Shown here: in pieces, positions 845 to 61,585 of the stretch
Position numbering within the stretch: position 1 is the first letter of the stretch
Layout of the letters: every line of letters begins with the position of its first letter
Program-made: the position numbers and the translations under genes
The notes under the pieces: generated by a model
Databases searched by the model: none
What the model was told of the DNA's origin: nothing
Seen by the model: only the letters and a program-made list of their open reading frames with translations
Origin: a virus
Strand: one strand, 5' to 3'
Length of the DNA: 64,000 nt
Virus record (IMG/VR): IMGVR_UViG_3300043788_000114
Coordinates: 1-64,000 of that record

Positions 845-910
845 GGGGTGTCGAGCGTTGCCACGCTCAGCTTTCGCCAGTCCATCTCAGGAGGATGGCC
901 ATGACACCCC
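845..910 (+). promoter_or_regulatory. Structured translational leader of the HNH-AP2 gene (copy 1 of 3)
   Basis: Outer helix P1 pairs GGGGTGTC (845-852) with GACACCCC (903-910), so it contains the third base of the start codon at 901 and the next codons. P2 follows at once: GAGCG (853-857) with CGCTC (864-868). P3 pairs CCATC (882-886) with GATGG (894-898) and holds the Shine-Dalgarno AGGAG in its loop. Copies with the same layout but different helix sequences precede the endonuclease genes at 41036 (reverse) and 61574. This predicts an initiation region closed until P1 and P3 open. Confidence 0.75.
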
Positions 911-1809
911 TTCAATCGAGATTACCATCGATATTTGGCTGCATATGTCGTGACGAACACTGTCTGATCCCTCGCGGAAAATGCCACTGCGGTTGCGGAA
1001 AAGATACGCCGATAGCGAAAAAGACAAGAAAAGAACGCGGTGATGTTAGGGGATACCCGCATAAATATATTCTTGGCCACACGAGAAATGTTGGACACCG
1101 CCCCTTTCTTCCAGCAGGCATGTGCGTGTGTCGCGATCCAAATTGCACAATACCATTTGGTTTTTGCCACTGCGGATGTGGTCAGAAAACAAATATTGCG
1201 CCAAATTCTGATACGAAATCTTATTGGATTAAGGGTTTGCCAATTCCATTTCTTCTTGGTCACCATCGTAGGGAAATTCCAATTGCTGAAGATGCCGCGC
1301 CATTCAAAATCAACGGCTTCTATTGTAGATTGATTCCACTAACGCAGGGATTGCATGTAATCATTTGGGAGGCAGACTACAAATACTTAATGCACTGGAA
1401 GTGGTTTGCTGTTTGGGATGAGAATGCAAGATCGTTCTATGCTGGACGCCAAATAAGGGAGAAAAAAGGGAAACAATACACGCAATACATGCATCGGCAG
1501 CTTCTTGGTCTTGGAAAAGGCGATAAGCGACTAGGAGATCACGCAAACGGCAACACCCTAGACTGCCGCAGAGACAATCTTCGCTATGCAGGCTACGACG
1601 GCAACGCTCGTAATAGGAAAAAGCAACGCAACAATACGTCTGGTTTTAAGGGAGTTTCGCTAGATAGAGATACGGGGTTATATTCAGCAAATATAAGGGT
1701 CAACGGGGTATTGATTTATCTCGGGAGAAGGGGTTCTGCGCGCTTAGCTCACGAACTATATTGCTTTGCATCCAAATCGCTCCATGGAGAATTTTCTCGT
1801 GTACAGTGA
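901..1809 (+). CDS. HNH homing endonuclease with AP2-type DNA-binding domain
   Basis: A protein of 302 residues. It begins with two similar Cys-rich zinc-binding repeats (CICRDEHC and CHCGCG at about 14-33; CVCRDPNC and CHCGCG at about 75-94). An HNH_3-type nuclease core follows (YMHRQLLG near 186, then DHANGNTLDCRRDNLR near 213-228). It ends in an AP2-like three-stranded DNA-binding domain (about 245-300). Free-standing HNH-AP2 genes are known selfish homing endonucleases. The frame is open up to 820, but the ATG at 901 is chosen because AGGAG lies 8-10 bases upstream and all three leader-bearing genes here begin Met-(Thr/Ala)-Pro. Base composition is more AT-rich than its neighbours. The gene splits the packaging region between the candidate small subunit and terL. 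Confidence 0.9.
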   Translation: MTPLQSRLPSIFGCICRDEHCLIPRGKCHCGCGKDTPIAKKTRKERGDVRGYPHKYILGHTRNVGHRPFLPAGMCVCRDPNCTIPFGFCHCGCGQKTNIAPNSDTKSYWIKGLPIPFLLGHHRREIPIAEDAAPFKINGFYCRLIPLTQGLHVIIWEADYKYLMHWKWFAVWDENARSFYAGRQIREKKGKQYTQYMHRQLLGLGKGDKRLGDHANGNTLDCRRDNLRYAGYDGNARNRKKQRNNTSGFKGVSLDRDTGLYSANIRVNGVLIYLGRRGSARLAHELYCFASKSLHGEFSRVQ

Positions 1810-1858
1810 GCGCATCGCATTGCAAAACTTAAACTACTTCGCATCCTCTGAAGGATGG

Positions 1859-3958
1859 ATGCCGGTTTACCACACCTTCGACGAGATCAGGAACTTCACA
1901 GCCTACATCAATAAAATCGTCAAGCCGATGGAGTCCAACTCCAAAAGCACCTACTACGGTCTCGTCGAGCCGATCACTGAAAAGCGCAGACAAGAAATAT
2001 ACCGCTGGATCGAGAACGAGCAAATTCTTTGCGGCCTCGATTATGGATATTGGCGTGACAATTACGCCTACGTCGTGAACGAAGGTGGACAGGTCGTAAA
2101 GTTCAAGAACAGGCGCTCGCAGGATGTGTTCGACTCCGTTGTCGCGATGCTAGAAGAGCAGGAGGCGGGCATACAGATACTCACGCTGAAGGCTCGTCAG
2201 GTGGGCATCACTACGCTGGTCGCTTTGATGTTTATTCACAGGATGCTTTTCGTCCCGAACACGCTCGCCGTCATGGCCTCGGTGCAAAAAGAGAAGTCGG
2301 AAGAGATCGAAGTTAAGCTCAACACGGCTTACGAAATGTGTCCTTTCTGGCTGAAGCCAATGAGAGAGCCGAAGAGGAGCTTTTCGAACGGATCGCGCCT
2401 CAACATCGAATCTGGAATGCAACCGAAGGGAATTGCGCAGGGAAAAACGCCAACGCTAATTCACATTTCCGAGATCGGGCTGATCCCGAATCCGCACAAT
2501 GTGATCGAAGAAGGACTTCTCCCGGCCACGCACTCGAACAAAAACCTGTTCATGGTATTCGAAGGAACCGGCTCCGGCAACGTTGGATGGTTCCCAGACT
2601 TCTGGCGCTCGCAGAAGAGAGACTGGCCGCTCGGGCTCGCCAGAATGTGCCCGGTATTCATTTCGTGGCCGCTCGCAACCGATCTGTACCCTCAAGCAGA
2701 CTGGCTAAGACAGCATCCTGTTCCAGCGGGATTCTACGAAAAGAGGACCGAGGCAACCAAGGCTCACATTTCTCGGTGCGAATCGTATATCCGCAACACT
2801 CCTTACCTTTCGAAAGTCGTCGGATCAAGCTACCGCGTGCCTATCGAGCAACAATGGTTCTGGGAATTTGAGTGGCGTCAAGCAAAGGAAAGACATTCCC
2901 TGTTCCAGCACGCCGCGCGGCTCCCGGCAGACGATTTTGAGGCTCTCACGGGAGAACACGATAGCGTCTTTGATCAAGAAAAAATCATGGAGATCGAGGA
3001 CCACATTTACGAAATCAAAACAGATGGGTCCAAGTCGCGGCGGAAACCGGTGCAGGCTTACGCAATCACTGGTCACTCGATTGACGAGGAGTTCGAGCCG
3101 GAGGATTCGCAGATCGATCCTTATGAAGAGGTGATCCACCTGATCTGGAGATCGCATCGTGGCGAGCGTTACGATTGGGAATTAGTTCCGCTCCGTCCGT
3201 TCGACGAGGAAAATGAGAATGAGACTCTGGACAAACTTCTGGTCTTCGAGCCGCCGAAAAAAGGAGAACTCTACAGTTGCGGTGTGGACACGGCGCACGG
3301 CCTCGGCAAAGAGGATGAAGATCGTTTTTGCGCATCGATGACGCGCGTTTCAAGTGGATCAGGCTCCGACGTTCAATCCTGTGAACTCACTTCAAATCGC
3401 TTCTCCCCAGCGCAGGCCGTTCCGTTCCTTGCCGCAATAGCAACGTGGTACGGACAGGGATCAGGGCACTATCGCGGCGTCAAATTCTCCATCGAACAGG
3501 TTGAAGGCCCCGGCGACACGTGCCAGAACCAATTAAAGATTATGGGTTTTTCATGGCACCACACTCCGGGAAGGCTCGATGGCAAGAAGATCAAAGACGA
3601 AAACCGGCACCGTGAAGGTTGGTACTCTAACAAAACGACCGTGCCGATTCTCATGGACCGTTTCGTTGAGGCTGTGAATGGCGGCTGGTACGTTCCTCAG
3701 TCCAAATGGCTGATCGAGGAATTGAAGACGCTCGAACGTCACACGGTGGACGGTGGCAGGGACAAGATGGTTCACCAGAAAAGTAAACACGACGACAGAG
3801 TGCGTGGCGCTGCGCAGAGCTATTTGAATATGCACACCTACGACGATCTTGCAATGCGCAGTCAAAGGCGCTACGCTGTCCCACATAAGAAAAAGCATGA
3901 CCCCAACGAAGGCGTTTGCATGGCGAACGCTTTCTCTGTGGGCGACTGGAACGAATGA
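1859..3958 (+). CDS. terL: Terminase large subunit (ATPase and nuclease DNA-packaging motor)
   Basis: Drives ATP-dependent DNA translocation into the prohead and cuts the concatemer. Numbering from the 1859 start (699 residues): Walker A-like KARQVGITT at about 111-119, Walker B-like LIHISEIG at about 200-207, then an RNase H-fold nuclease with Asp477 (CGVDTAHG), Glu546 (IEQVEG) and an Asp pair at 645-646 (HDDRVRG). The frame is open further up to an ATG at 1766, inside the end of the upstream endonuclease gene. I choose 1859 because GAAGG lies 5 bases ahead and it avoids the overlap. A nuclease-domain relative lies at 5746-6456. The family assignment is secure; the start is not. Confidence 0.93.
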   Translation: MPVYHTFDEIRNFTAYINKIVKPMESNSKSTYYGLVEPITEKRRQEIYRWIENEQILCGLDYGYWRDNYAYVVNEGGQVVKFKNRRSQDVFDSVVAMLEEQEAGIQILTLKARQVGITTLVALMFIHRMLFVPNTLAVMASVQKEKSEEIEVKLNTAYEMCPFWLKPMREPKRSFSNGSRLNIESGMQPKGIAQGKTPTLIHISEIGLIPNPHNVIEEGLLPATHSNKNLFMVFEGTGSGNVGWFPDFWRSQKRDWPLGLARMCPVFISWPLATDLYPQADWLRQHPVPAGFYEKRTEATKAHISRCESYIRNTPYLSKVVGSSYRVPIEQQWFWEFEWRQAKERHSLFQHAARLPADDFEALTGEHDSVFDQEKIMEIEDHIYEIKTDGSKSRRKPVQAYAITGHSIDEEFEPEDSQIDPYEEVIHLIWRSHRGERYDWELVPLRPFDEENENETLDKLLVFEPPKKGELYSCGVDTAHGLGKEDEDRFCASMTRVSSGSGSDVQSCELTSNRFSPAQAVPFLAAIATWYGQGSGHYRGVKFSIEQVEGPGDTCQNQLKIMGFSWHHTPGRLDGKKIKDENRHREGWYSNKTTVPILMDRFVEAVNGGWYVPQSKWLIEELKTLERHTVDGGRDKMVHQKSKHDDRVRGAAQSYLNMHTYDDLAMRSQRRYAVPHKKKHDPNEGVCMANAFSVGDWNE

Positions 3959-3970
3959 CCGGGAGGAAGT

Positions 3971-4231
3971 ATGGGATTCAAAGATTGGTTCAAGAAGAAA
4001 GAGAAGCCGCCAGCGGTGACGCTTGTCGCGGAAGCACCTGCCGAATTGGATGAGGTCAGCAGGGTCGCAAACCATTTCGCCAAAGGCGGCGAGATCGTCG
4101 ATCTGACGAACCGCGACCGCAAACCGAATGACGGAATGCCTTCCGATCAGAGCATGATGCACCCGTGGAACGAGGCACACACGGGTACGCGGAGAGGACT
4201 ATCCAATCTGGGGAAGGGGGATCGGCGATGA
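3971..4231 (+). CDS. Small hypothetical protein
   Basis: An 86-residue protein with a strong ribosome site (GGGAGGAA just before the ATG). It begins with a basic amphipathic segment (MGFKDWFKKKEKP) and has no Cys motif or membrane span. The stop overlaps the next start by four bases (ATGA), so the two are translationally coupled. No family is recognised. Confidence 0.75.
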   Translation: MGFKDWFKKKEKPPAVTLVAEAPAELDEVSRVANHFAKGGEIVDLTNRDRKPNDGMPSDQSMMHPWNEAHTGTRRGLSNLGKGDRR

Positions 4232-4650
4232 GTGAGCGGAAGATCGCAGTACCGGAAGGAATGCTGAAGGCGGCACTGGATGGGCTGGGCATCGAAATTG
4301 TGGAGGCGCGGCGACAGTATGTTGAGAACGCCCTCGAAGCTGCCCTGCGCTGGCTGAGCTTGCATCCGGTGGTGCCGACAAAGGAGCAGACTGTAGTTTT
4401 ACGTGACTTGGACACCAACATATCAGCACAGTATGGACAAACTGCTCCAACATGCGCGTCTGTCTCGGCAGTAGTGACATTCTGGCAGCGCCGCATGTTC
4501 CTCGCGCCGGAGCAGGAAGTGATTCCAGTCGCGCAGACTATAGACCTAATCTGGAAAGCCCCAGAGGGAGACAGCCAAGACAGGAAAGATGCGAGAAACA
4601 CAACAACGACGTTTTTGAAGCCTATCGGAGAGGCCAGAAAGCAGGTGTGA
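4228..4650 (+). CDS. Hypothetical protein
   Basis: A 140-residue protein read from the ATG at 4228, which overlaps the upstream TGA; GAAGGGGG sits ahead of it. The frame is open further upstream, but the overlap and ribosome site favour this start. The N-terminal half looks helical (an Ala/Leu/Glu-rich stretch at residues 10-45). No known domain is recognised. Confidence 0.7.
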   Translation: MSERKIAVPEGMLKAALDGLGIEIVEARRQYVENALEAALRWLSLHPVVPTKEQTVVLRDLDTNISAQYGQTAPTCASVSAVVTFWQRRMFLAPEQEVIPVAQTIDLIWKAPEGDSQDRKDARNTTTTFLKPIGEARKQV

Positions 4651-4714
4651 GATGAATATCGGAGACTTCCAAGGGCACTGCTCTACAACTAGCACACCGC
4701 GCTACTAGAATCCG

Positions 4715-4882
4715 ATGTGTCGCTGCCAAACTTACCCAGATAATCTTGGTCCGTGCAGAACGTGGGAGGAAGGCGGCAATGGGAGATGTGTTTACTGCGA
4801 CCATGAACGAGATTGCCACTTCATTCTGACTGGCATGACACATGGCGAGCCGAATGCGGAGGGAAAGGAAATTCCGCTATGA
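4715..4882 (+). CDS. Small Cys-rich zinc-binding protein
   Basis: A 55-residue protein. Its core has the pattern CRCQTYPDNLGPC, then GGNGRCVYCDHERDC, giving at least six Cys and a His suited to two zinc sites. Almost the same pattern (CKCPTYPGNLGPC then GGNGRCVYCDHETDC) forms the C-terminus of the protein encoded on the other strand at 51505-51999. The two genes therefore share a duplicated domain. The stop overlaps the next start (ATGA). The upstream Shine-Dalgarno is weak. Function unknown. Confidence 0.65.
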   Translation: MCRCQTYPDNLGPCRTWEEGGNGRCVYCDHERDCHFILTGMTHGEPNAEGKEIPL

Positions 4883-5067
4883 ATGCCTCACAATTTACGC
4901 AAAAACAGATCAACGCGATTTGGAATAAGTTGGATGGGTTCCCTGTCGGTGAATGGAGCGATGTATCTTCATGCGTAACCATCCCGTTCGCAAAGGCCAG
5001 AATTACCGTAAACGGAGAATTGGAACGCTCACTCGAAATATCGATTGAGCCTCTGGTGGTCAACTGA
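4879..5067 (+). CDS. Small hypothetical protein
   Basis: A 62-residue protein from the ATG at 4879, which overlaps the previous stop; GGAGGGAAAGGAA precedes it. The frame continues upstream, but the coupled start is preferred. It has no motif I recognise. Confidence 0.65.
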   Translation: MNASQFTQKQINAIWNKLDGFPVGEWSDVSSCVTIPFAKARITVNGELERSLEISIEPLVVN

Positions 5068-5074
5068 GGTAATT

Positions 5075-5749
5075 ATGAAGTTTATCCGTCTCACTAAGCG
5101 CCATAACGAGCACGAGCGATGCCTCGTTTTATGGACTCCGTGGATGACAGTCGTGTTCGACTTTGGTTCTGTGCAGTGCAGAGGAACCGACGAGTTCGAA
5201 CTGGTGATCAAATATCGCGCGTGGGGTCCTGTTTTCTACTGGGGAAACCGCGACATTGAGAAGTTGGGCGAGCGGAACAAGTTCGACAGTTTCCAGTTCG
5301 CCCGCATTCAGCCGCGTTACGCAGAACTTCGTAAGAAGCGTATCGATGACCGCGACTTCTACGAAATCCGGGAACAACTCGTCCGTCAAGGCAAGCGGAA
5401 AAACCCTGCCAACATGACCTATGCCGAGCGCCATGCGGCGACGATGGATGCGGTGAAAACGATGGAGTTCAGCAACAACTTCGTCCACCTGATGACGACG
5501 CCAGTAGCTAAACTTGCCTTGGAGCGTGGCGAGATTGTGACGGACGACGTGACAGGCGAGGTGTTAACGGAGAAGATTTACGACGAGCACGCAGAAAAAA
5601 GCCTAAAACTACCAGTCCGCAACATGGGGATTTTGGGATTCAAAAAAGCAAAGGACCGAGACGGTTACGAGGCAATATGCGTACCGGGCATGGAGCGTCG
5701 GCAAATGGCGACGAGCGAAGATTTGAAGATGATCGGAGGCGGAGAATGA
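5075..5749 (+). CDS. Hypothetical protein
   Basis: A 224-residue protein. The ATG at 5075 follows GAGG and lies after the previous gene's stop; the longer reading from 5045 would overlap it. The N-terminal half has alternating hydrophobic and aromatic residues (ERCLVLWTPW, VVFDFGSVQC), and the C-terminal half is charged. The stop overlaps the next start by four bases. No family recognised. Confidence 0.75.
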   Translation: MKFIRLTKRHNEHERCLVLWTPWMTVVFDFGSVQCRGTDEFELVIKYRAWGPVFYWGNRDIEKLGERNKFDSFQFARIQPRYAELRKKRIDDRDFYEIREQLVRQGKRKNPANMTYAERHAATMDAVKTMEFSNNFVHLMTTPVAKLALERGEIVTDDVTGEVLTEKIYDEHAEKSLKLPVRNMGILGFKKAKDRDGYEAICVPGMERRQMATSEDLKMIGGGE

Positions 5750-7151: not shown

Positions 7152-7164
7152 AAGCAGGGAATCC

Positions 7165-7530: not shown

Positions 7531-7558
7531 TCGGGTAGCAAAATATCTTAAAAATTGC

Positions 7559-7588
7559 TTGACAATGTAGTGCGCAATGCACTACGTT
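7559..7588 (+). promoter_or_regulatory. Promoter with palindromic operator for the ribbon-helix-helix gene
   Basis: A perfect TTGACA -35 box (7559-7564) is followed 18 bases later by a weak -10, TACGTT (7583-7588). Between them lies a perfect inverted repeat, GTAGTGC (7567-7573) and GCACTAC (7579-7585), with a 5-base centre. The gene downstream encodes a ribbon-helix-helix protein, a family that binds such short palindromes, so autorepression is the simple reading. Confidence 0.65.
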
Positions 7589-7593
7589 TAGCC

Positions 7594-40188: not shown

Positions 40189-40241
40189 TGTTCTTTTTAT
40201 GTGTTTTCACCATAGGGAATCGGTGTAGAATGGCGCTGTGC

Positions 40242-40256
40242 CGTCCGGGAGCGAGC
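40242..40256 (+). repeat. Direct repeat flanking the inserted endonuclease gene, left copy
   Basis: CGTCCGGGAGCGAGC, identical to 41119-41133. The pair encloses the reverse-strand endonuclease gene and its leader. Confidence 0.6.
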
Positions 40257-40262
40257 GCCGAG

Positions 40263-41036
40263 TCAATCAAAGAGAGACGGCTGTTGGTTCCCAGATTCGT
40301 CCGTGCGTTTGTACTTTGCGAGATAGATTCTTGCCATTTTTACCCACTCCTCTATTTCCAAGATTCCGAGGCGAGTATTGCATTTTGTGCATAGCAAACC
40401 ACGACGGCATTTTTCACACCCTCTTCCAGTAGGGCAGCAACGATGATCGTGATCAATCGACATACGCTTTTTGCCACTAAACTCATATGGAATTCCGCAG
40501 AGACCGCACAGACCATTTTGCTCGGCAAATTTTGTCTCATACCACTCCTTCGTGACTCCGTAATACGAGTAATTCCTCCCTTTCGTATACTCCTTTACGT
40601 ACTCCTTGTTGGCGTCTCTCCATTCCTTGTTTTTCTTGCGATTGATCTCTGGAGGGCGCGGTTCCGCACGCCACCTCTCTGCGGCGTCGAAGGCAAAACA
40701 GTCTTTGCAGGTTGGTGCCCTTCCGTCAGCGCACCGCTTGTTCTTGTAAAAACTGTCGAGAGGTTTTTCGATCCGGCATTTCGTGCAAATCTTTGTTGTC
40801 GAGACGCCAGCGAGGATAGCCTTTTTCTCTTCAAGTGATTCGTAGTACGCGATTGTGCAGCGTTTGCACCGCGAGCAATACCCGTCGCGTGCTCGGGTAT
40901 TCTTGGTGAACTTGCTCAAAGGAAGAATCTCTTTACAAACCCTACAAATCTTCTCAGCAAAACGAGCGTCTGGGGTGTTGAATTCCGCTTGTCTTTCAAT
41001 CTCTTGGGGGTATAATGTGGCAGATGAGGGTGCCAT
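40263..41036 (-). CDS. Endonuclease VII-like (HNH/ββα-metal) homing or recombination endonuclease
   Basis: A 257-residue protein on the opposite strand to all its neighbours. Two N-terminal zinc knuckle units occur (CRVCKEILPLSKF and CTKCRIEKPLDSF; each with a second CxxC). The C-terminal domain is endonuclease VII-like: NGLCGLCGIPYEF, the metal-binding SIDHDHRCC and the CRRGLLCTKCNTRLG segment. T4 endonuclease VII resolves branched DNA, but relatives are frequent as free-standing mobile genes. Orientation, flanking direct repeats and the shared leader all favour the mobile interpretation. Confidence 0.87.
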   Translation of the reverse strand: MAPSSATLYPQEIERQAEFNTPDARFAEKICRVCKEILPLSKFTKNTRARDGYCSRCKRCTIAYYESLEEKKAILAGVSTTKICTKCRIEKPLDSFYKNKRCADGRAPTCKDCFAFDAAERWRAEPRPPEINRKKNKEWRDANKEYVKEYTKGRNYSYYGVTKEWYETKFAEQNGLCGLCGIPYEFSGKKRMSIDHDHRCCPTGRGCEKCRRGLLCTKCNTRLGILEIEEWVKMARIYLAKYKRTDESGNQQPSLFD

Positions 41037-41089
41037 GTCGCTCCTTTCAGCGATGAGGTGAGAATCGAGCAGCCACGCTCGACACCCTC
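41026..41089 (-). promoter_or_regulatory. Structured translational leader (copy 2 of 3)
   Basis: Read on the minus strand: P1 pairs GAGGGTGTC (41089-41081) with GGCACCCTC (41034-41026), 9 bp with one G-U, covering the start codon's last base. P2 pairs GAGCG with TGCTC (41080-41067). P3 pairs TCGCT with AGCGA (41053-41038) and holds AAAGGAG. A -10-like TAGAAT precedes it. The layout is the same as at 845-910 and 61518-61585. Confidence 0.75.
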
Positions 41090-41118
41090 AATTCTATCAC
41101 CGAGTTGCGAGGAATGCG

Positions 41119-45993: not shown

Positions 45994-48777
45994 ATGCCCG
46001 ACCCTCAGCACAAACTCGTCAAGGTAGACGACTCGATCATCAAGTTTCCGGGTGACATGCCCGACGCTGATGTGGCTGCGGTCATCAAGAAATTTACTTC
46101 CTCTCCGGACTACAAAAAGCAGACACACACCAAAAACCAGATGCCATCGGGGATCGCGACGGAGGAGTCTGAGCACAAAAGACTCACCGGCAATGTTCCG
46201 ACCGTCACGCCGGACTGGAACACGGTGCGTCGGGCCGTCTACAAGGCCACAGAGCCCACTCTCCAGAACCCGAATACCAAGCCGGTCGACAACAGCGTAA
46301 AAGCGAACGTGGACGCCGCGTGGAACGCTGGAGCGAACGCAGCGAACGTGGGAGGAAACATCGCCAAGCGCGCGGGGCGCGTGATCTTTGGCGCGGTGGA
46401 CATGGCTCCGCAGATGTTCTCGATCCTGTCGAAGCTGGGATCGCCGGACGACAAGGTTTCACAGCAGGCCGAGACGGACTTGCTCAACTTCCATCCGGGC
46501 GCACAGATCGCGGACCGGCTGAAAGAGGCTGTCCACGACTGGCGGAAGTCGAAGAGCCTTGCGGCAGAGAACGCGTTGGGGGATGTGCTTGGATTCTTCC
46601 TGCTCGACAAAGCAGGAAAGGTTCTGCCGGAAGAGAGGATCAAACAACTCAACGCGGAAGGCGTGGTGCTTCCTCCGGAGGCAAAGCCAAAAGCTCCAGC
46701 ATCGATGCCGGGACAGCCACCGACGATTGAGGGAACATTTGAGCGCGCCACGCCGAAGCAGGTTGTGCCGGTCGAAGCGGCTGCGAAGCAGACCAGAAAC
46801 ACGCCGCCCAATCTGGAGGATGTGAAGGCGGCGGCGGAGAAACTCAAGCTGCCTGAGACGAATCCTCCAGCCGCGCCGCCGTCACTCGCCGACATCAAAG
46901 CCAAGGCAGAAGCGGTAAAGGCATCCAAGCCGGAGATCGCGCCGAAGCCTGCACCGCAGCCAGTAGCGACTCAACCTGTCGCAGCGCCGCCCAAAGTCGA
47001 AACTCCCGCACCGCAACCATCCACTGCTGTTCCTCCAGAACCGCCGAAAGCCGAAGCACCGCCAGCGCCAAAAGAGGAGCCTAAAACTACCAAGTACAAA
47101 TACGGCAACACACAAGCCGACATCCCGCAAGACTCCGACGCAGGTAAAGCTCTCGCGACCGCCCGCACCCAGATCGACAAGAACGACCTGATGCCGTCAA
47201 CTAACACGACAGATGGAAGCGGTCTCGAAGAGAACGCGCACATCACTGTGCGCTATGGAATCGACGGCGAGGACACGGCAGGGATCAAAGCGTATTTGGA
47301 AAAGCAGGCACCGTTTGAGGCCACATTGGGCAAGACGACTGCCTTCCCGCCAAGCGAGCACAGCGACGGTGGAGCGCCTATCGTTGTGAACATCGAATCA
47401 CCAGAACTGCACAGGATGGAGAAGGAGATCGATGAGCACGGCAACTTTGTTGACCGTTCGTTCCCGGAGTACAAGCCACACGTCACCTTGGGATATGTGA
47501 AGCCGGAGGCTGCGCAAAAGTATGTGGGCATGAACGGGATGGAAGGGAAAAAGTTCACCGTCAACTCCGTCTCGATCAGCAACAAAGATGGGTCTATCGA
47601 GGAAGTGCCGCTCAAGGGCACGCAAACACTGGAAAATGCGGACCTCAAGCAGGTGTACAAAGCACCCCCAGCGAGCGACATCCAACTTGCCGATGCGTGG
47701 AGGAGACTGGGAGATGTAAAGAACCAACTGGCTCAACTACCCCGCCCATACGATCCAAAACCGGACGCCACGCCGGAGCAGATCGAAAAGTGGAAAGCGG
47801 ATTACAAATCGTGGGCGGAGAAAGCGGAACCGTGGCTCCAGCAGTACACCCAAGCCACTCAGCAGATTGAGGACTTGAAGAACAGAGGTATCGGAGAAAT
47901 CCGGCTACTGCCGGACAAGTCCAGAATCCTTTACCTGAACCGCGCAGGATTGAACACGCTCTACACCGGCATGGCAGGAGAAGCGCGACCGGGCTACACG
48001 CTGAGCGGCGTGAGTCTTGACCCGCACACCGTGAAGTCGATCATCGGCAACCTGATGATCCTCAAACCACCACTGCACGAGGAATTGACGGACCTGATGC
48101 TTCGTGGGATGGACAAGAAAGGTGTAGTGATCGCCGCGATCCCGCGCAAGGGCGACTCGATCCGTGAAGCGGTCTCCACGTTGCGCGAAGAATTGAATCA
48201 TGGCTGGCAGAACACCGTCGCTGACCAGATGGGGAATCATCTTCCCAAGGAAAAGTTTGCGGAGTTGAACGAGGTGATTCCGGAGGGGATGAAGAGCCAT
48301 CTCAGGATCAACTACCCGGAGATTACCGACGACGGCAGCGAGTTGATGAATCGCAGGCGGGTGCGCGAGGCAAGTGCTAAGATGCTATCCGAGGCTCCGC
48401 AAAAGCTCGGGATCACAGAAGACGAAGCTGCCGCGTATCTGTTCCAGTATTTCACCGCGCTCGAAGAACAGCACGGGGAAAAAGCTCTGGACAAATTGCT
48501 CCACATCACCGTACTCGCAAAGGAGATCAAGGATGACTACTTCCGAGCAATCGACCGAGACACCGGAAAGCAAGCAGGTGGAAGAGGTGTGGGAAGCCTT
48601 CAAGACGAAGGGCCTCGCGGGGCTCCGGGAACTGATGCACAAGCGGGACGAGGAGTACCAGAAGGCGAAGGAGCAGCCGCAAAGCAAGTGAAAGTTAAGG
48701 ACCCGGAAGGTTACATCCACATCTTCCCGGATGAGAAGTCGGCATCGGCCTTTCGTGAGGCTGCGGGGATCAAATGA
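45994..48777 (+). CDS. Large polyvalent virion protein with 2H phosphoesterase domain
   Basis: A 927-residue protein. The N-terminus (HKLVKVDDSIIKFPGDMPDAD) is a motif often seen at the start of phage ejection proteins. A Pro/Ala-rich linker covers about 235-375. Residues about 390-520 form a 2H phosphoesterase-like domain: two H-x-T/V motifs, HITV at 416 and HVTL at 496, 80 residues apart, as in LigT/CPDase-type enzymes. The T4 anti-CBASS enzyme Acb1 belongs to this superfamily. A helical region follows, with EELNH (near 733) as a possible but weak zincin-like motif. Substrate is unknown. Confidence 0.68.
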   Translation: MPDPQHKLVKVDDSIIKFPGDMPDADVAAVIKKFTSSPDYKKQTHTKNQMPSGIATEESEHKRLTGNVPTVTPDWNTVRRAVYKATEPTLQNPNTKPVDNSVKANVDAAWNAGANAANVGGNIAKRAGRVIFGAVDMAPQMFSILSKLGSPDDKVSQQAETDLLNFHPGAQIADRLKEAVHDWRKSKSLAAENALGDVLGFFLLDKAGKVLPEERIKQLNAEGVVLPPEAKPKAPASMPGQPPTIEGTFERATPKQVVPVEAAAKQTRNTPPNLEDVKAAAEKLKLPETNPPAAPPSLADIKAKAEAVKASKPEIAPKPAPQPVATQPVAAPPKVETPAPQPSTAVPPEPPKAEAPPAPKEEPKTTKYKYGNTQADIPQDSDAGKALATARTQIDKNDLMPSTNTTDGSGLEENAHITVRYGIDGEDTAGIKAYLEKQAPFEATLGKTTAFPPSEHSDGGAPIVVNIESPELHRMEKEIDEHGNFVDRSFPEYKPHVTLGYVKPEAAQKYVGMNGMEGKKFTVNSVSISNKDGSIEEVPLKGTQTLENADLKQVYKAPPASDIQLADAWRRLGDVKNQLAQLPRPYDPKPDATPEQIEKWKADYKSWAEKAEPWLQQYTQATQQIEDLKNRGIGEIRLLPDKSRILYLNRAGLNTLYTGMAGEARPGYTLSGVSLDPHTVKSIIGNLMILKPPLHEELTDLMLRGMDKKGVVIAAIPRKGDSIREAVSTLREELNHGWQNTVADQMGNHLPKEKFAELNEVIPEGMKSHLRINYPEITDDGSELMNRRRVREASAKMLSEAPQKLGITEDEAAAYLFQYFTALEEQHGEKALDKLLHITVLAKEIKDDYFRAIDRDTGKQAGGRGVGSLQDEGPRGAPGTDAQAGRGVPEGEGAAAKQVKVKDPEGYIHIFPDEKSASAFREAAGIK

Positions 48778-54677: not shown

Positions 54678-54690
54678 GGGGATTCCTCAA

Positions 54691-54732
54691 GTGCAAGCAT
54701 CGAATCTAGCACTGCAAGCATGAAAGTGCAAG
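54691..54732 (-). repeat. Three iteron-like heptamers upstream of the 54677 gene
   Basis: (G/C)TGCAAG on the + strand at 54691, 54712 and 54726, spaced 21 and 14 bases. They lie in a 63-base gap of an otherwise overlapping operon. Possible regulator-binding sites. Confidence 0.4.
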
Positions 54733-54740
54733 GATTGATT

Positions 54741-56236: not shown

Positions 56237-56817
56237 CCTAATTGTCCGACGAGATGTAACGCTGGATAGCCGTCAATCGAGTAATGGTAAGATTCGACAT
56301 CGAGTAGGTGCCGTGCAGGCCATGGTGAATCAGTAAACTTTTTGTTAGTCTGCCACATGGGACTTTTTGGATCGTCCGCATCTATTAGTCCTTTGAAGAA
56401 TGGGCTTATCGCTGAGAATATTGCGTCCTCTCCATCGCCCGCAATAACAACATCGAAATGTTCTAGTATCGCTTTCATTGGCGCATCAGCCCTATGCCTA
56501 CCACGCTTATAAGAAGAATGGATCAGTGTCGGATGCGGACCGCCAAGTATTAACTTCCTTCCGGGCACTTCTCGAAGCGCCTTGGCAATTCGCATAACTG
56601 ATGGAAATTGTGGTGTTGTAGAGGTGATGCCGAATATATCTGCGCCACGATACTGCCGCACAACTTCTTCGAAGTTGGCTACTCCACATAGGTCAAGATG
56701 ATCAACTTGGTAGCCGTCGCGTTCGAGAACCGCAGCAACCTTGAGAATACCGAGAGCGGCGAACACCCGGTCTTCAAGGAGGAACGGAGACGGTGGGGTT
56801 ACGAGACATATTTTCAC
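56155..56817 (-). CDS. Cobalamin-binding N-terminal piece of the frameshifted radical-SAM enzyme
   Basis: A 220-residue piece with a GTG start at 56817, overlapping the methyltransferase stop (GTGA). It shows the B12-binding domain typical of this enzyme class: ICLVTPPSPFLLEDRVF, VDHLDLCG, GADIFGITSTTPQF, KLILGGPHPT and VVIAGDGEDAI. It reaches the first cluster Cys (LGCPICVP) and then runs out of frame. B12 radical-SAM enzymes methylate or rearrange unreactive carbons; in phages they are sometimes part of sugar or DNA modification sets. Confidence 0.75.
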   Translation of the reverse strand: MKICLVTPPSPFLLEDRVFAALGILKVAAVLERDGYQVDHLDLCGVANFEEVVRQYRGADIFGITSTTPQFPSVMRIAKALREVPGRKLILGGPHPTLIHSSYKRGRHRADAPMKAILEHFDVVIAGDGEDAIFSAISPFFKGLIDADDPKSPMWQTNKKFTDSPWPARHLLDVESYHYSIDGYPALHLVGQLGCPICVPFAPEGTLQCYGAPVTGIMRT

Positions 56818-57386
56818 GGCTTCCTCCAAACAGTCATTCGCTCTGCTTCTGAAAGCAGTTTCCAATTCGCTGACTTCACGAATTGATCAAGACATGCGGC
56901 GACTTCGTGGTAGTCACTGTCGTGGACCGCAAGCACTCCGCTGGGTTTCAGGAATGGAATCCAATTTGCAAAATCGCGGCCTACCTGCGGAGCGTAATGC
57001 CACCCATCGATGTAGAGAAAATCGATAGGAAAATTCCACTGTGACGCCACCAAGTCGGTAGGCATTTTGTGATAGGTGAACGGGACTTCGAGAAAATGAT
57101 TCACGATGAGATTCCAAAACGCATACGTCGCATGTTTCGGTTCCCAGAGGAGAGCGTCAACGAGGTGAATATCGAGGTCGAGGTCTTTTTGAACCTGAAG
57201 GTATACCGATGACGATCTTCCAGTGTAGGTACCCAATTCCACTACACGAGAACCGGTGGGCAACGACAGCACATGGGGAACGAACGTCTTGAGTTCCGCC
57301 GCTGTGGCGGTGCAGAGAGGATGGTCATGCGTGCCGTTCCCCTCGGCAGAGAGCGAGAATTCGTAAACCTCGTCAAATGTCTTCAT
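56814..57386 (-). CDS. Class I SAM-dependent methyltransferase
   Basis: A 190-residue protein. The SAM-binding motif I is VVELGTYTGRSS (about 46-57); IDFLYIDGWHY (about 115-125) and GVLAVHDSDYHE (about 146-157) match the Methyltransf_24 family. These often methylate sugars or small molecules. It is coupled to the radical-SAM gene and lies between glycosyltransferases, so a sugar-modifying role is likely. Confidence 0.78.
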   Translation of the reverse strand: MKTFDEVYEFSLSAEGNGTHDHPLCTATAAELKTFVPHVLSLPTGSRVVELGTYTGRSSSVYLQVQKDLDLDIHLVDALLWEPKHATYAFWNLIVNHFLEVPFTYHKMPTDLVASQWNFPIDFLYIDGWHYAPQVGRDFANWIPFLKPSGVLAVHDSDYHEVAACLDQFVKSANWKLLSEAERMTVWRKP

Positions 57387-57402
57387 GGCTTAAACGATAG
57401 CA

Positions 57403-58095
57403 TCATTCAGGTTTTCTCAAGGCGGAAACTTCGCCACTTAGCAGCGCGCGAAATGGGTCTGGATGGCACGGACCAGCGAAATGCGCGAACTGAGGGGATG
57501 TTCCGTAGCGAGAGTTGTATGGCATTCCATCGCGCACGATCAATGATCCGTCTTCCTTGTCGGCGGAAACCACATAGAATAGCGTCGTCAGGGTATCGAG
57601 CGGAACGAGTTCGGGATGACTGGCGGCGAGTTGGCAAAACGCAAGTTGATCCATCACGTCGGCGTTGAATCTCAATCCGGCTTTCAGAGATTCGATCCAA
57701 GCAACGATGTATTCCGGGTAGCCGCACATCATTCCGGGGTTCGGATAGCGCCAAAGACTTGTGGAGCGGTACCATTGCGCAAGCGACTCATCTGGCCAGC
57801 AATTGCGCTCGGCGGAGATTAAGAGCGGAGGCACTCGGGTGTGCATACCGTAGATATTTCCGAAGAACAGCACATCCCATGCATCGGTGAAGACGATCCG
57901 GTCGTAGCCGGAGAATTTCTTGCACATCCTGTGCCAGTAATCCACTCTCCACCTTCCAGTCATGGAGCCGATCCCGTCAGATAACGTAATAGGCTCGATA
58001 TGGAAGTCGATGTGCGCATCGCGCAGTTGCCCTTCATACTCGTCAGTCAGGTATTTTCGCTCGGTGGCATGTGCGACGACAATCACGTCTTTCAT
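57403..58095 (-). CDS. PLOD/procollagen-galactosyltransferase-like glycosyltransferase
   Basis: A 230-residue protein with IVVAHATERKY at the start. The YDRIVFTDAWDVLFFG segment (about 64-79) holds the DxxD metal-binding motif. Then PNPGMMCGYP and DVMDQLAF follow, in the order of PLOD-type glycosyltransferases. Part of the modification cassette. Confidence 0.72.
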   Translation of the reverse strand: MKDVIVVAHATERKYLTDEYEGQLRDAHIDFHIEPITLSDGIGSMTGRWRVDYWHRMCKKFSGYDRIVFTDAWDVLFFGNIYGMHTRVPPLLISAERNCWPDESLAQWYRSTSLWRYPNPGMMCGYPEYIVAWIESLKAGLRFNADVMDQLAFCQLAASHPELVPLDTLTTLFYVVSADKEDGSLIVRDGMPYNSRYGTSPQFAHFAGPCHPDPFRALLSGEVSALRKPE

Positions 58096-58101
58096 AAATC
58101 C

Positions 58102-58332
58102 TCAATCTCCGCCAGCTTCCCATCCGGTTACGCAAGAAATACAAATATAAAGGAGCACCAAGCCGTAAGCCGCTCCCCCACCCAGAATGCCTGAGAACAC
58201 ACGCTCAATCATCGTATTCGGAACGTGCAGGTAGTAAGTGAACATCCACCAAAGAAATGGCGCGACCATCAGCGCGATTGCAATCGTCCAACGGCGAGCG
58301 GTGATTGGCGGACCACCGAGTTTGTTTTCCAT
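58102..58332 (-). CDS. Small membrane protein with two spans
   Basis: A 76-residue protein: TIAIALMVAPFLWWMFTYYL and a second span (FSGILGGGAAYGLVLLYICI), with a short charged N-terminus. It might carry lipid-linked sugars for the cassette, or act as a holin-like protein; the sequence does not decide. Confidence 0.62.
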   Translation of the reverse strand: MENKLGGPPITARRWTIAIALMVAPFLWWMFTYYLHVPNTMIERVFSGILGGGAAYGLVLLYICISCVTGWEAGGD

Positions 58333-58365
58333 ATATGCTCCGATCTGAGCGTTACTTTGTGCCGC

Positions 58366-59583
58366 TCATTTGAATCCCTCTCGGAACCATGCTTCCCAGC
58401 GAGGCCATAGATGTTTCCAGTCGTACCGTGGATCGAGACTCGTTCGCTTGCCGATCCATTCGTTCGCCTTCGTCGCCCAATCTTGAGCATTGTAGACAGG
58501 GCGCTTGGTCGCGAACGATCCTTGATAGTGAAACGCGATAGGATCAACTTGCATTTCCTTCGGAACGAAATCAGCGGCTCCAGCGTAACTCCCCGTCACC
58601 ACGGGAGTCTGACACGCGAGGCTCTCAGCCAACGGCAGTCCGAAACCTTCAGGACCTATGCCTAGCGTCAGATCGCAGGCCGAGAATGCTTCCGCCAGTT
58701 GTTCATCGGCAATCTGCGTCAAACTAATGATCGCCCTGTCGAGAATTCCATAATCGACTAGGAGTGCGGGGAGACTCCAGAATCGCTCGTATGCATCCGT
58801 GTGCAGCCATAGCCTCACTTTTCGGTCTCTGGCAATGATCGCTGCCGTTTCTATACCGAGCGCGAAATTTTTGCGGTCCTGATTCGTCGCGCAAATTCCG
58901 ATCAGGCAGGTGTCATCAGTGATCGGTCCGCTATCCTTCATGATCTGTTGGCCGCTAGTGATCTGGAAAAACATGTGGCGGCAGAGTTGACGATGCCTCT
59001 CGTAGAACGTTTCTCTGTCTACCCCATGCGGGATACTACTTAAATGCCGCTTCGATGATTCCTCGTCTCCGATAGTCCGCCGCAAAACATCTTCGCCAAA
59101 CTCACCATAGCCAAGCAGCGTATCGAACCCGAGCGCGGTTCGCATGAGTGGGAATGACAACTTGTCGTTCGGCCCTGAGCCGTCGATTGGCGCGTAGCCA
59201 AAAAGCTTGAACGGACGTTTGATGAGCCATTGACGCAACGCCGGGTTCTTGAGCAGAGAAGATTCCGAGAGTCTTGGCTGAGCGATCCAATCCAAGCGGG
59301 ATAAATCCCAAATCGTGAATACAATCCCAGACTCATTACCAGCAAAATCGTCCCAGACTTCAGGCAAAGTCGGGATCGCCCATTCCTGCATTCCCTCAAT
59401 GACGTAGTTCGTGAACCCAAAACGCCGTGAGCCGGGTCCACCCCATCCGAGAACGCCAACCCGATAAATATCGCTTAGGTGCTCATGCACCCTTGTCGTG
59501 ATGTCACGGCATATTCTTCCGAGGCCGCTTGATGACGATGGGCTGTCGGAGATGAAGAGGATTGGCGTGGGTTTTTCGGCCAT
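58366..59583 (-). CDS. GT-B glycosyltransferase (group 1/GT4-like)
   Basis: A 405-residue protein with the ATG at 59583. The N-terminal domain has LFISDSPSSSSGLGRI. The C-terminal domain has the GT4 signature GPEGFGLPLAESLACQT (about 300-316), with the E-x7-E spacing that contacts the nucleotide sugar, and SYAGAAD after it. The GTG at 59619 is rejected because it lies in the -35 region of the promoter at 59591-59619; the start is within a base or two of the expected transcription start, so the mRNA may be leaderless. First gene of the leftward operon. Confidence 0.8.
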   Translation of the reverse strand: MAEKPTPILFISDSPSSSSGLGRICRDITTRVHEHLSDIYRVGVLGWGGPGSRRFGFTNYVIEGMQEWAIPTLPEVWDDFAGNESGIVFTIWDLSRLDWIAQPRLSESSLLKNPALRQWLIKRPFKLFGYAPIDGSGPNDKLSFPLMRTALGFDTLLGYGEFGEDVLRRTIGDEESSKRHLSSIPHGVDRETFYERHRQLCRHMFFQITSGQQIMKDSGPITDDTCLIGICATNQDRKNFALGIETAAIIARDRKVRLWLHTDAYERFWSLPALLVDYGILDRAIISLTQIADEQLAEAFSACDLTLGIGPEGFGLPLAESLACQTPVVTGSYAGAADFVPKEMQVDPIAFHYQGSFATKRPVYNAQDWATKANEWIGKRTSLDPRYDWKHLWPRWEAWFREGFK

Positions 59584-59590
59584 GCGGTTG

Positions 59591-59619
59591 ACGATAGCGC
59601 CGAAGTGAAAGCGTGTCAA
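59591..59619 (-). promoter_or_regulatory. Leftward promoter of the modification operon
   Basis: On the minus strand: TTGACA (59619-59614), 17-base spacer, TATCGT (59596-59591). The ATG of the GT-B gene follows 8 bases after the -10, which leaves no room for a ribosome site. Confidence 0.65.
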
Positions 59620-59647
59620 GCGTCACCAGCGGTCAACGCGTGGATAG

Positions 59648-59676
59648 TTGACAAAAACCAAGCAGCGCGATACCGT
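59648..59676 (+). promoter_or_regulatory. Rightward promoter of the small regulator gene
   Basis: TTGACA (59648-59653), 17-base spacer, TACCGT (59671-59676). Same design as the divergent leftward promoter 28 bases away, with the ATG 5 bases after the -10 box. Confidence 0.6.
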
Positions 59677-59680
59677 GCAA

Positions 59681-59896
59681 ATGATGAATGACGATCAGAT
59701 CGTCCGGCTCATTCGAGGCAAACAGGGAGAGCAATCGCTCCGCGCCTACGCATCGCAGATAGGTGTTTCAGCAGCTTATCTGTCGGATGTGCTGAACGGG
59801 CACAGAGGGCCGGGGAAGAAAATGCTGAAGTTTTTTGGAATAGAAAAGACGCGCAGGGTGACGGTCACCTACGCGGCGACAAGAAAGAAGAAGTGA
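59681..59896 (+). CDS. Small helix-turn-helix regulator
   Basis: A 71-residue protein from the ATG at 59681 (a second ATG follows at once). LRAYASQIGVSAAYLSDVLNG is an XRE-like helix-turn-helix (about 24-44), followed by a short basic end. It is divergent to the leftward operon and shares its control region, so it could switch that operon. The mRNA looks leaderless. Confidence 0.72.
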   Translation: MMNDDQIVRLIRGKQGEQSLRAYASQIGVSAAYLSDVLNGHRGPGKKMLKFFGIEKTRRVTVTYAATRKKK

Positions 59897-59902
59897 TAGG
59901 AG

Positions 59903-60055
59903 CTAGATCACGTGCAGCAGGTAGAGAATCAGGAGGATCACCAGAATGGTTCCCAGCCCGATCCCACCACCGGCACCCGCACCCCACTGGGTGTGGCCCC
60001 AGTAGCCGAAGCCGCCGCCGAACAGCAAGATCAACAAGATAATGATGATCAGCAT
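59903..60055 (-). CDS. Tiny membrane protein, DUF3309-like
   Basis: A 50-residue protein: MLIIIILLILLFGGGFGYWG, a Gly-rich turn, then a second hydrophobic segment (GLGTILVILLILYLL). This is the plan of the small DUF3309 family. Its start overlaps the stop of the previous gene (TAATG). Confidence 0.6.
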   Translation of the reverse strand: MLIIIILLILLFGGGFGYWGHTQWGAGAGGGIGLGTILVILLILYLLHVI

Positions 60056-60231
60056 TAGTGACCCATCCCAAGGTGCAGCGGGAGGATGCCGCTAAACAGC
60101 GCGGATGCTACCCAAAACGCCAACCCAGCGGCAATGAGCCTGCCGAACCATGGGCTGGGCTGAGGCTGGGGATTCCAAATGGCAGCGATAGCGAACAGTA
60201 CAAACGCGAAAACCAAAAGGACGATTGACAT
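60055..60231 (-). CDS. Small two-span membrane protein
   Basis: A 58-residue protein with GAGGTGATCT before the ATG. Two hydrophobic stretches (IVLLVFAFVLFAIAAIW and LIAAGLAFWVASALFSGIL) surround a Pro-rich turn. Coupled to the next small membrane gene. Holin-like in shape but far from the lysozyme gene. Confidence 0.58.
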   Translation of the reverse strand: MSIVLLVFAFVLFAIAAIWNPQPQPSPWFGRLIAAGLAFWVASALFSGILPLHLGMGH

Positions 60232-60277
60232 AGATCACCTCAAGGCAATTGGATGCCGCTTTGCGGCAAATCGTCTG

Positions 60278-60283
60278 TATAAT
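60278..60283 (+). promoter_or_regulatory. Consensus -10 box
   Basis: TATAAT, 12 bases before the ATG of the gene at 60295. No good -35 box is found at 16-18 bases, so this is a weak call. Confidence 0.35.
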
Positions 60284-60294
60284 TCTGCTCAAGT

Positions 60295-60459
60295 ATGGCA
60301 ACACCCTGTTTCCAAAAGCCTGACTCGAATCCACCGGTTTGCGGCGTTCACAACGAACGTCTGGTGCCGGAACAGATTCGCGTGGACGACATGAAGATCG
60401 ATTGCCTGCGCTGCCCGAGAACCGGAAGCGTGGTGAAGGATTCGAAAAAAGAGAGTTGA
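60295..60459 (+). CDS. Tiny zinc-ribbon-like protein
   Basis: A 54-residue protein with Cys at 5, 16, 37 and 40 (PCF, VCG, CLRC), which could form one zinc site. It starts with a short leader after TATAAT and ends in a Lys-rich tail. Confidence 0.55.
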   Translation: MATPCFQKPDSNPPVCGVHNERLVPEQIRVDDMKIDCLRCPRTGSVVKDSKKES

Positions 60460-60590
60460 CAGGATTTCTGGACCGTGAGAGGATTTGAACCGTGAAGACT
60501 TTGTGCCTCAGTTCGCTCTCCTCGTATAGCTCATTACTGAGCGGCAGCGGGGGTTCGTGAACTGAGTCCAGAGTGGAATTCAGTGAAGCG
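60460..60590 (+). other. Non-coding stretch before the tRNA array
   Basis: No gene is supported. It starts at a TTGACA (60456-60461, with no matching -10) and includes inverted repeats such as CAGTTC/GAACTG and ACTGA/TCAGT, then a terminator. It could encode a small RNA. Confidence 0.35.
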
Positions 60591-60620
60591 GCCTCCGAGA
60601 AATCGGGGGCTTTTTAGTTT
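60591..60620 (+). terminator. Rho-independent terminator upstream of the tRNA array
   Basis: GCCTCCGA (60591-60598) pairs with TCGGGGGC (60603-60610) around GAAA and is followed by TTTTTAG and more T. It insulates the tRNA array from the upstream genes. Confidence 0.8.
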
Positions 60621-60624
60621 TTGC

Positions 60625-60709
60625 GCGAGAGTGGCGAAATGGCAGCACGCAGCGGTCTTAAAAACCGTTGGAGAAATCCGTGGGGGTTCAAGTCCCCTCT
60701 CTCGCACCA
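60625..60709 (+). tRNA. tRNA-Leu (UAA)
   Basis: Acceptor GCGAGAG/CTCTCGC, loop CTTAAAA with anticodon TAA, long variable arm, T arm with TTCAAGT; CCA is encoded. Confidence 0.93.
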
Positions 60710-60710
60710 T

Positions 60711-60785
60711 GAGCCTGTACCCAAGTGCTAAGGGAGCGGTCTGCAAAACCGTGATGCGGTGGTTGGATTCCACTCAGGCTCTCCA
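60711..60785 (+). tRNA. tRNA-Cys (GCA)
   Basis: Acceptor GAGCCTG/CAGGCTC, loop CTGCAAA with anticodon GCA, encoded CCA. T loop is unusual (TTGGATT). It starts one base after the previous tRNA. Confidence 0.88.
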
Positions 60786-60796
60786 AGTTTAAATGT

Positions 60797-60886
60797 GGCC
60801 CCGCTGGCGGATTGGCCCAGCCACTAGTCTTAGGAACTAGCGTCCTTAGCCGGACACTGTGGGTTCGAATCCCACCGGGGCTACCA
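60797..60886 (+). tRNA. tRNA-Leu (UAG)
   Basis: Acceptor GGCCCCG/CGGGGCT (one G-U), loop CTTAGGA with anticodon TAG, long variable arm, T arm GTGGG/CCCAC, encoded CCA. Confidence 0.92.
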
Positions 60887-60893
60887 AAGTTTT

Positions 60894-60980
60894 GCCGATG
60901 TGCTGGAATTGGAAGACGGACTGCACTCAAAACGCAGCGCGAGCAATCGCATGGGAGTTCGATCCTCCCCATCGGCACCA
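60894..60980 (+). tRNA. tRNA-Leu (CAA)
   Basis: Acceptor GCCGATG/CATCGGC, loop CTCAAAA with anticodon CAA, one A-C mismatch at the base of the anticodon loop, long variable arm, encoded CCA. Confidence 0.88.
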
Positions 60981-61031
60981 GATTAAGGCCGTATTAGGCG
61001 ACGAACTAAATTTAGTCGTGCGGCTAATTTT

Positions 61032-61119
61032 GGAGAGTCAACCGTTGAGGCTGACGGCGCGGTTTGCTAAACCGATGGTTCCCTTTGGGAATGGGCATCG
61101 TGCGCTCGGCTCTCCGCCA
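61032..61119 (+). tRNA. tRNA-Ser (GCU)
   Basis: Acceptor GGAGAGT/GCTCTCC, anticodon loop TTGCTAA (GCT), long variable arm, T arm with loop ATCGTGC instead of the usual TTC start, encoded CCA. Confidence 0.82.
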
Positions 61120-61141
61120 TGTTTGTGCAGTAAACGTGTTT

Positions 61142-61229
61142 GGGGAGTAAACCTGTCGGGCGACAGGGCTCGTCTGGAAAGCGATGCGGACCCATCGGGT
61201 TTGCGTTTCGAGTACGCTGCTCCCCGCCA
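61142..61229 (+). tRNA. tRNA-Ser (GGA) with unusual D arm
   Basis: Acceptor GGGGAGT/GCTCCCC, loop CTGGAAA with anticodon GGA, long variable arm, T arm TTCGAGT, encoded CCA. The D arm is six base pairs (CCTGTC/GACAGG) with a GGGC loop, a shape more like tRNA-Sec than normal tRNA-Ser. Confidence 0.82.
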
Positions 61230-61230
61230 C

Positions 61231-61318
61231 GGAAGCGTTGGGCATTTGGCAGGCCCACCCCGCTCGAAACGGGACACACCGCAAGGTGTTGGGGATTCGA
61301 CTTCCTCCGCTTCCGCCA
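61231..61318 (+). tRNA. tRNA-Ser (CGA)
   Basis: Acceptor GGAAGCG/CGCTTCC, loop CTCGAAA (CGA), D stem GGGC/GCCC, long variable arm, T loop TTCGACT, encoded CCA. One base after the previous tRNA. Confidence 0.9.
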
Positions 61319-61324
61319 CTGTTT

Positions 61325-61414
61325 GGATACGTTAGGCATGTGCCAAGCCTACCCCGTTTGAAGCGGGACGCTCCTGAAAGGGACTTGGGTGTTGGACTCA
61401 CCCCGTATCCGCCA
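61325..61414 (+). tRNA. tRNA-Ser (UGA)
   Basis: Acceptor GGATACG/CGTATCC, loop TTTGAAG (TGA), long variable arm, T arm GGGTG/CACCC, encoded CCA. Confidence 0.88.
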
Positions 61415-61419
61415 GATGT

Positions 61420-61506
61420 GCAGCGTATGACCGGGCGCACGGTCACCGCTCTGTAAAAGCGGCGCTCATTCGAGCATGGGGAGTTGAAGCCTCTCACGCT
61501 GCACCA
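61420..61506 (+). tRNA. tRNA-Tyr (GUA)
   Basis: Acceptor GCAGCGT/ACGCTGC, anticodon stem CCGCT/AGCGG with loop CTGTAAA (GTA), D stem GACC/GGTC, long variable arm as in bacterial tRNA-Tyr, encoded CCA. Confidence 0.9.
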
Positions 61507-61517
61507 GAGATGTATAA

Positions 61518-61585
61518 TTGGGGTGTCAGGTGCGTGAACACCCGGCTTACGCCAACCGGAAATGAGGTTTCCGATGACACCCCAA
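61518..61585 (+). promoter_or_regulatory. Structured translational leader (copy 3 of 3)
   Basis: P1 is a perfect 10 bp (TTGGGGTGTC, 61518-61527; GACACCCCAA, 61576-61585). P2 pairs GGTG (61529) with CACC (61539). A small GGC/GCC hairpin follows (61544-61553). P3 pairs CGGAAA (61557) with TTTCCG (61568) and has GAGG in its loop. A TATAAT box (61513-61518) overlaps its edge, at the place where TAGAAT lies in copy 2. Confidence 0.75.

Follow-up and report, generated by a model that had tools for sequence, protein, structure and literature searches.

A start-codon leader with an adjoining −10 box recurs on phage nuclease and methylase genes and may act as an expression lock

An arrangement in which a promoter is embedded in a structured leader has been reported for T4 gene e, I-TevI, I-TevII, I-TevIII and segB, and for Aeh1 mobE (PMC3014915, PMC2988022). 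In the long RNA initiated upstream, a helix conceals the ribosome binding site or start codon, and a promoter in or beside the 5′ strand of that helix yields an RNA without that strand; homing endonuclease genes are among its carriers (PMC3014915, PMC2988022). Judging from reviews and figure legends in the open-access literature, each of these T4 genes appears to have a hairpin of its own rather than a member of one homologous family. Here, we describe a similar leader that occurs three times in a 64-kb stretch of viral DNA (positions 1 to 64,000 of the 138,516-base IMG/VR record IMGVR_UViG_3300043788_000114; hereafter the window), at 845-910 (+), 41089-41026 (−) and 61518-61585 (+), each time at the start of an endonuclease gene. 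Unlike the T4 structures, these leaders have one four-helix fold with a conserved junction, common to unrelated nuclease and methylase families in dozens of contigs; their outer helix, P1, includes the start codon and codons 2 and 3, and their −10 box is TATAAT-like. The box reads TATAAT or TAGAAT without a −35 box, compared with the late promoter (TATAAATA, gp55) that characterizes the T4-type class. T4 late promoters also lack a −35 box. The HNH endonuclease-associated RNA (HEARO) is likewise a structured RNA near HNH-type genes; it is larger, is linked to IscB-type RNA-guided nucleases and is not a leader overlapping a start codon, and no Rfam match was obtained at the present leaders.

The best explanation of these leaders, to which we assign a probability of about 0.6, is that each is a cis-acting expression lock opened by its own embedded promoter. 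In an RNA initiated upstream, the 8-nucleotide (nt) segment that follows the −10 box would pair with the G of the start codon and codons 2 and 3, forming P1, and the compact fold of the inner helices P2, P2b and P3 would keep the Shine-Dalgarno sequence in a hairpin. With the Shine-Dalgarno sequence so held and P1 closed, ribosomes would be unable to initiate on read-through RNA. Polymerase using the adjoining −10 box would start within the 5′ strand of P1 and produce an RNA without most of this helix, on which the start codon would be exposed and the nuclease made. Transcription of neighbouring genes would thus leave the nuclease gene untranslated, and its translation would depend on the firing of its own promoter, possibly tied to a given stage of infection. 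The sequence-based grounds for this proposal are the covarying helices, the fixed position of the promoter and the sharing of the leader among unrelated genes; the modelled ones are the loss of P1 and cheaper opening of the AUG.

The position of the −10 box is nearly invariant. Of 63 distinct leader copies, 62 have a box ending 0-3 nt upstream of P1, the distance being exactly 1 nt in 35. Its score is at least 4.4 in 61 of the 63, compared with 4.8% of background positions; the median in a 39-member set is 7.3, a value that 0.46% of background positions reach. Bacterial RNA polymerase initiates approximately 7 nt after the −10 box, and with the box directly against P1 it should therefore initiate inside the 5′ strand of this helix. 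The predicted +1 falls on nt 4-7 of P1, and the seventh nt after the box is G in 46/63 copies. An RNA starting there would retain 3.3 of 8 P1 pairs on average rather than the 7.5 of the read-through RNA. The computed cost of opening the AUG falls from 5.7 to 1.2 kcal/mol in this predicted local transcript and is lower in 60/63 copies, with the same result for a +1 placed 5-9 nt after the box; at control ATGs trimmed likewise it did not change (3.7 and 3.9 kcal/mol). Two hallmarks of the T4-type lock thus recur here: a modelled helix over the Shine-Dalgarno sequence or start codon of the read-through RNA, and a promoter whose transcript would lack the 5′ strand, as predicted from the −10 position in 62 of the 63 copies. 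An open reading frame (ORF) could be called upstream of 52 copies, on the same strand in 35 and at a median distance of 21 nt, so read-through is to be expected. An initial annotation of the window, made from its sequence alone, had suggested a lock controlled by ligand or temperature; it overlooked the −10 box at P1, in view of which a lock with a built-in promoter is the likelier mechanism. An RNA thermometer or a purely constitutive attenuator, in which the structure merely lowers translation or tunes it to temperature, would fit the enclosure of Shine-Dalgarno sequence and start codon in helices of the long RNA. However, P1 is GC-rich and strong, the fixed embedded promoter would have no role and the conserved junction no reason, and we consider such a device highly improbable.

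P1 was defined by position, not by fitting, and 7.49 of its 8 pairs are formed in the 63 copies, compared with 6.11 ± 0.10 after permutation of the partners, none of 5000 permutations exceeding 6.52. Both strands have changed at 5 of the 8 pairs, with 95% of cells paired. Among 39 homologues, 38 have a P2 that begins at most two nt from P1, and 38 a P3 that ends at most five nt from the start codon; shuffled sequences would give 5.4 and 13.8, respectively. The fourth, short helix, P2b, is formed by GG(C) directly after P2 with (G)CC; it is present in 48/61 copies where 3.3 are expected, and its third pair is seen as C-G, A-T and T-A. A first covariation test, with 39 sequences, gave no E below 0.05 against all pairs. 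With 63 sequences and a tree-aware null, purpose-made and R-scape-like rather than R-scape itself, the top four of 2080 column pairs were all structural (E ≤ 0.017), and 11 of the 17 structural pairs had E < 0.05 when tested within the structure. The covariation asserted in the initial annotation was thus borne out, as were its helices P1, P2 and P3, although its three-helix plan missed P2b. Among 17 homologues missed by our search model (R1, described below), some of them near-duplicates, the segment after the −10 box also tends to pair with the early coding region (p = 0.0018). A variant plan without P2 is seen in L320 and L327, and less clearly in L336, with the 3′ strand of P1 20-35 nt inside the homologous gene. 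The members' genes also carry a T-N-T-A-C-C motif about 20 nt downstream of their starts, in differing reading frames (e.g., window 61590-61600). A candidate outer helix, P0, pairing the −10 region with this motif, was considered and rejected: cognate pairs gave −8.37 kcal/mol and non-cognate pairs −8.36 kcal/mol (permutation p = 0.48).

The junction is compact, with P2 usually 0-1 nt after P1 and P2b directly after P2, and the P2 loop often has 6 nt and an A-rich 3′ end. AAG(N)CC is found at the junction in 24 of 48 members identified without using it (2.0 expected), which exceeds what a plain lock needs. Because of this excess, a ligand- or protein-responsive leader is kept as a rival: whether riboswitch-like or bound by a repressor, it would use the four-helix junction as receptor and P1 as a platform opening and closing the start codon in all transcripts. 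A conserved, covarying structure in a 5′ leader, as expected of a riboswitch, is indeed present, and P2, P2b and P3 would persist in the local transcript. The predicted start inside P1, however, would leave most local transcripts unable to form the platform; junction variants are tolerated (e.g., L014, L039), and the downstream genes have no common metabolite and suggest no ligand candidate. We regard this reading as unlikely. A tentative extension of the embedded-promoter lock would have the junction bind a host or phage factor, with promoter choice and factor binding together timing selfish nucleases and methylases, and the cassette being swapped among unrelated genes.

Besides the junction, several observations weigh against the embedded-promoter lock. 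No conservation of a −35 box was detected in the 63 copies, the mean best match being 2.90/6, equal to background (2.90). The upstream ORF lies on the opposite strand in 17 of 52 copies. Where transcription would start we infer from the usual distance between −10 and +1, and the translational repression and timing of the lock are likewise stated as expectations. Within the window, leader 1 (at 845) carries only a degenerate −10; leader 2 (at 41 kb) is antisense to its neighbours, so that read-through there should be rare, and its computed AUG-opening cost fails to fall. The read-through argument is therefore weakest for these two leaders.

The 63 copies come from environmental phage contigs and were aligned to R1; the leader stands ahead of similar genes in about fifty such contigs other than the one studied here. 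A scan of IMG/VR with the P1-strand pattern alone returned approximately 118 stretches, mostly chance matches, some fifteen of which had the whole plan and TATAAT-like letters before P1, and with a stricter pattern 36 of 38 stretches carried the plan. A pattern of junction and P3 that left P1 free recovered members with P1 altered on both strands (GGAGATGTC/GACATCTCC, GGGGTCA/TGACCCC and GGGTTGTC/GACAACCC), and scans for the predicted compensated variants GGGGTC/GACCCC and GGTTGTC/GACAACC gave some twenty more full members. R1 was built from 32 sequences, including the three of the window, and necessarily matches these; roughly half of the 63 copies played no part in building it. It scores 61 of the 63 at 27 bits or more, the remaining two (the second copy in L432, and L337) sitting at gene starts, and decoy loci that share the same P1 words reach at most 25.0 bits. 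In loci picked by protein similarity without RNA information, R1 gave 17 plus-strand matches in 375 kb, all 17 at the start of the homologous gene. The further copies and the placement at start codons by which the initial annotation proposed to judge its claim were thus both obtained. No Rfam 15 model matched over the leaders, at curated cut-offs in the window or at E ≤ 1 in five member-bearing loci; in agreement with that annotation, which knew of no named family with this plan, the leaders form an RNA family absent from Rfam. Among 50,697 records of cultured phages there was no meaningful leader match, and megablast of the first 25 kb of the window against cultured phages gave no match. A single scan of bacterial and archaeal genomes yielded 31 pattern matches, all at or below 21.4 bits and thus noise, given that decoys reach 25.0. 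Several phages carry two or three copies, the record holding the window having three. Only some nucleases bear the leader: the phage has three more HNH/endonuclease VII genes, at 102, 110 and 127 kb, and none shows a recognizable copy. R1 can serve as a search model for leader-bearing genes in uncultured phages.

The genes behind the leaders are mostly DNA nucleases of different folds, namely HNH_3, AP2-HNH, endonuclease VII, PD-(D/E)XK and, once, DUF559. A near-identical leader subtype precedes a C5 methylase (L014), an N6/N4 DNA methylase (L125) and a gene without a Pfam match (L130). With these genes and the PD-(D/E)XK and DUF559 nucleases among its carriers, the leader is not restricted to HNH genes. 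Because near-identical leaders precede unrelated genes, the leader appears, from these sequences, to move between genes. The start-codon lock would thus be a conserved, portable RNA family serving two methylases and no fewer than five kinds of nuclease; its sharing suggests that selfish genes are subject to strong, common selection on their timing, and that this timing can be gained as a single unit. In L046, L094, L128, L146, L147 and others, only a 13-codon frame (MTPQEMIIPRSIL-stop) comes after the identical leaders; the gene may have decayed, or the leader may have been retained in its absence.

The same spread could be read as the mark of a mobile-element end, as the initial annotation also suggested, or of a recombination hot spot; the inverted arms would then be DNA signals that move the cassette. 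Near-identical leaders before different Pfam families would fit, as would copies on both strands in many contigs and a 15-nt direct repeat on the flanks of the second (41 kb) gene of the window. Across 50 cassettes, however, the longest flanking matches averaged 7.2 nt (direct) and 7.1 nt (inverted), compared with 6.9 nt in shuffled sequence, and are about chance level in nearly all cassettes, the 41 kb gene being the exception. The arm sequences moreover vary with pairing kept, unlike recognition sites, and the arms are locked to the −10 box and start codon. Mobile ends are therefore very improbable, and for the leader we retain the embedded-promoter lock.

The three window leaders share the plan that was first described from them, on reading and on folding: folded in isolation, each is predicted to form P1, P2 and P3, and the minimum-energy fold of the 41 kb leader changes once flanks are added. 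Their P1 strands are GGGGTGTC/GACACCCC, GAGGGTGTC/GGCACCCTC and TTGGGGTGTC/GACACCCCAA. P3 keeps its pairing with differing sequences, also as first described (CCATC/GATGG, TCGCT/AGCGA and CGGAAA/TTTCCG). The Shine-Dalgarno sequence lies within or against the P3 loop as claimed, but the distance from the end of P3 to the ATG is 2, 1 and 0 nt in the three leaders, rather than the two or three first given. The first protein matches HNH_3 and, weakly, AP2, the second Endonuclease_7 and the third HNH_2; these are separate Pfam families, in agreement with the different HNH subtypes first proposed.

Leader 1 (+) follows the degenerate −10-like GATACA (839-844), the weakest promoter of the family (score 0.5; family median, 7.3). 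The 5′ strand of its P1, GGGGTGTC (845-852), is placed by sequence, fold and R1 alignment, and its P2 hairpin, GAGCGT-TGCC-ACGCTC (853-868), by sequence and shuffle test. A junction with a short P2b-like hairpin (AGC TTTC GCC, 869-878; sequence and P2b count) leads to the P3 hairpin CCATC-TCAGGAG-GATGG (882-898), with the Shine-Dalgarno AGGAGG at 889-894. The 3′ strand of P1, GACACCCC (903-910), comprises the G of the ATG (901-903) and codons 2-3 of the HNH_3/AP2-type endonuclease gene (901-1809; 302 amino acids (aa), MTPLQSR...; Pfam). If it began at the in-frame ATG at 820, which has an AAGGTG-like site, this endonuclease would be lengthened through the leader (820-901); the start at 901 is preferred because homologues begin MTP.

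Leader 2 (−) has the −10 box TAGAAT (TGATAGAAT) at 41091-41096. The 5′ strand of P1, GAGGGTGTC (41081-41089; sequence and fold), is followed by the P2 hairpin GAGC-GTGGCT-GCTC (41067-41080; sequence and shuffle test) and the P3 hairpin TCGCT-GAAAGG-AGCGA (41038-41053), with the Shine-Dalgarno AAGGAG. The 3′ strand of P1, GGCACCCTC (41026-41034), comprises the G of the ATG (41036-41034) and codons 2-4 of the endonuclease VII-like (HNH) gene (40263-41036; 257 aa, MAPSSAT...; Pfam). In leader 3 (+), the −10 box TATAAT (61513-61518) precedes GGGGTGTC (61520-61527), the 5′ strand of P1, with two extra pairs involving TT at 61518-61519. The P2 hairpin GGTG-CGTGAA-CACC (61529-61542; sequence and shuffle test), the P2b hairpin GGC-TTAC-GCC (61544-61553; fold and P2b count) and the P3 hairpin CGGAAA-TGAGG-TTTCCG (61557-61573; Shine-Dalgarno GAGG) follow. 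GACACCCC (61576-61583) closes P1, comprising the G of the ATG (61574-61576) and codons 2-3 of the HNH_2-type endonuclease gene (61574-62404; 276 aa, MTPQEQS...; Pfam).

At the site orthologous to the 41 kb locus, the sole relative, L445, carries a gene of the same family (37% identical) behind a leader of the same plan, with different P2 and P3 sequences and a P1 that appears weak by eye; with L445 occupied at the same place, no empty site for the 41 kb gene was seen. The 15-nt direct repeat GCTCGCTCCCGGACG, at 41133-41119 (−) and 40256-40242 (−), brackets the endonuclease VII gene and its leader, and L445 has a similar pair. A 108-bp stretch (window 40218-40325) is 99% identical to L445, although the gene bodies differ (37% protein identity); it comprises the 3′ end of the gene and a TAGAAT box (40226-40231) that precedes a GGCGCT...AGCGCC hairpin, and no gene is apparent behind these.

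Elsewhere in the window, both Rfam transfer-messenger RNA (tmRNA) models and ARAGORN identify a permuted (two-piece) tmRNA gene at 62838-63263, which encodes the tag AEPFALPMAA and lies within a cluster of phage tRNAs (60625-63917); no clear tmRNA was found in the other 26 records tested. Amid mostly unclassified large proteins, a 927-aa protein (45994-48777) contains an RNA ligase-like stretch (phrog_755, E = 8e-11).

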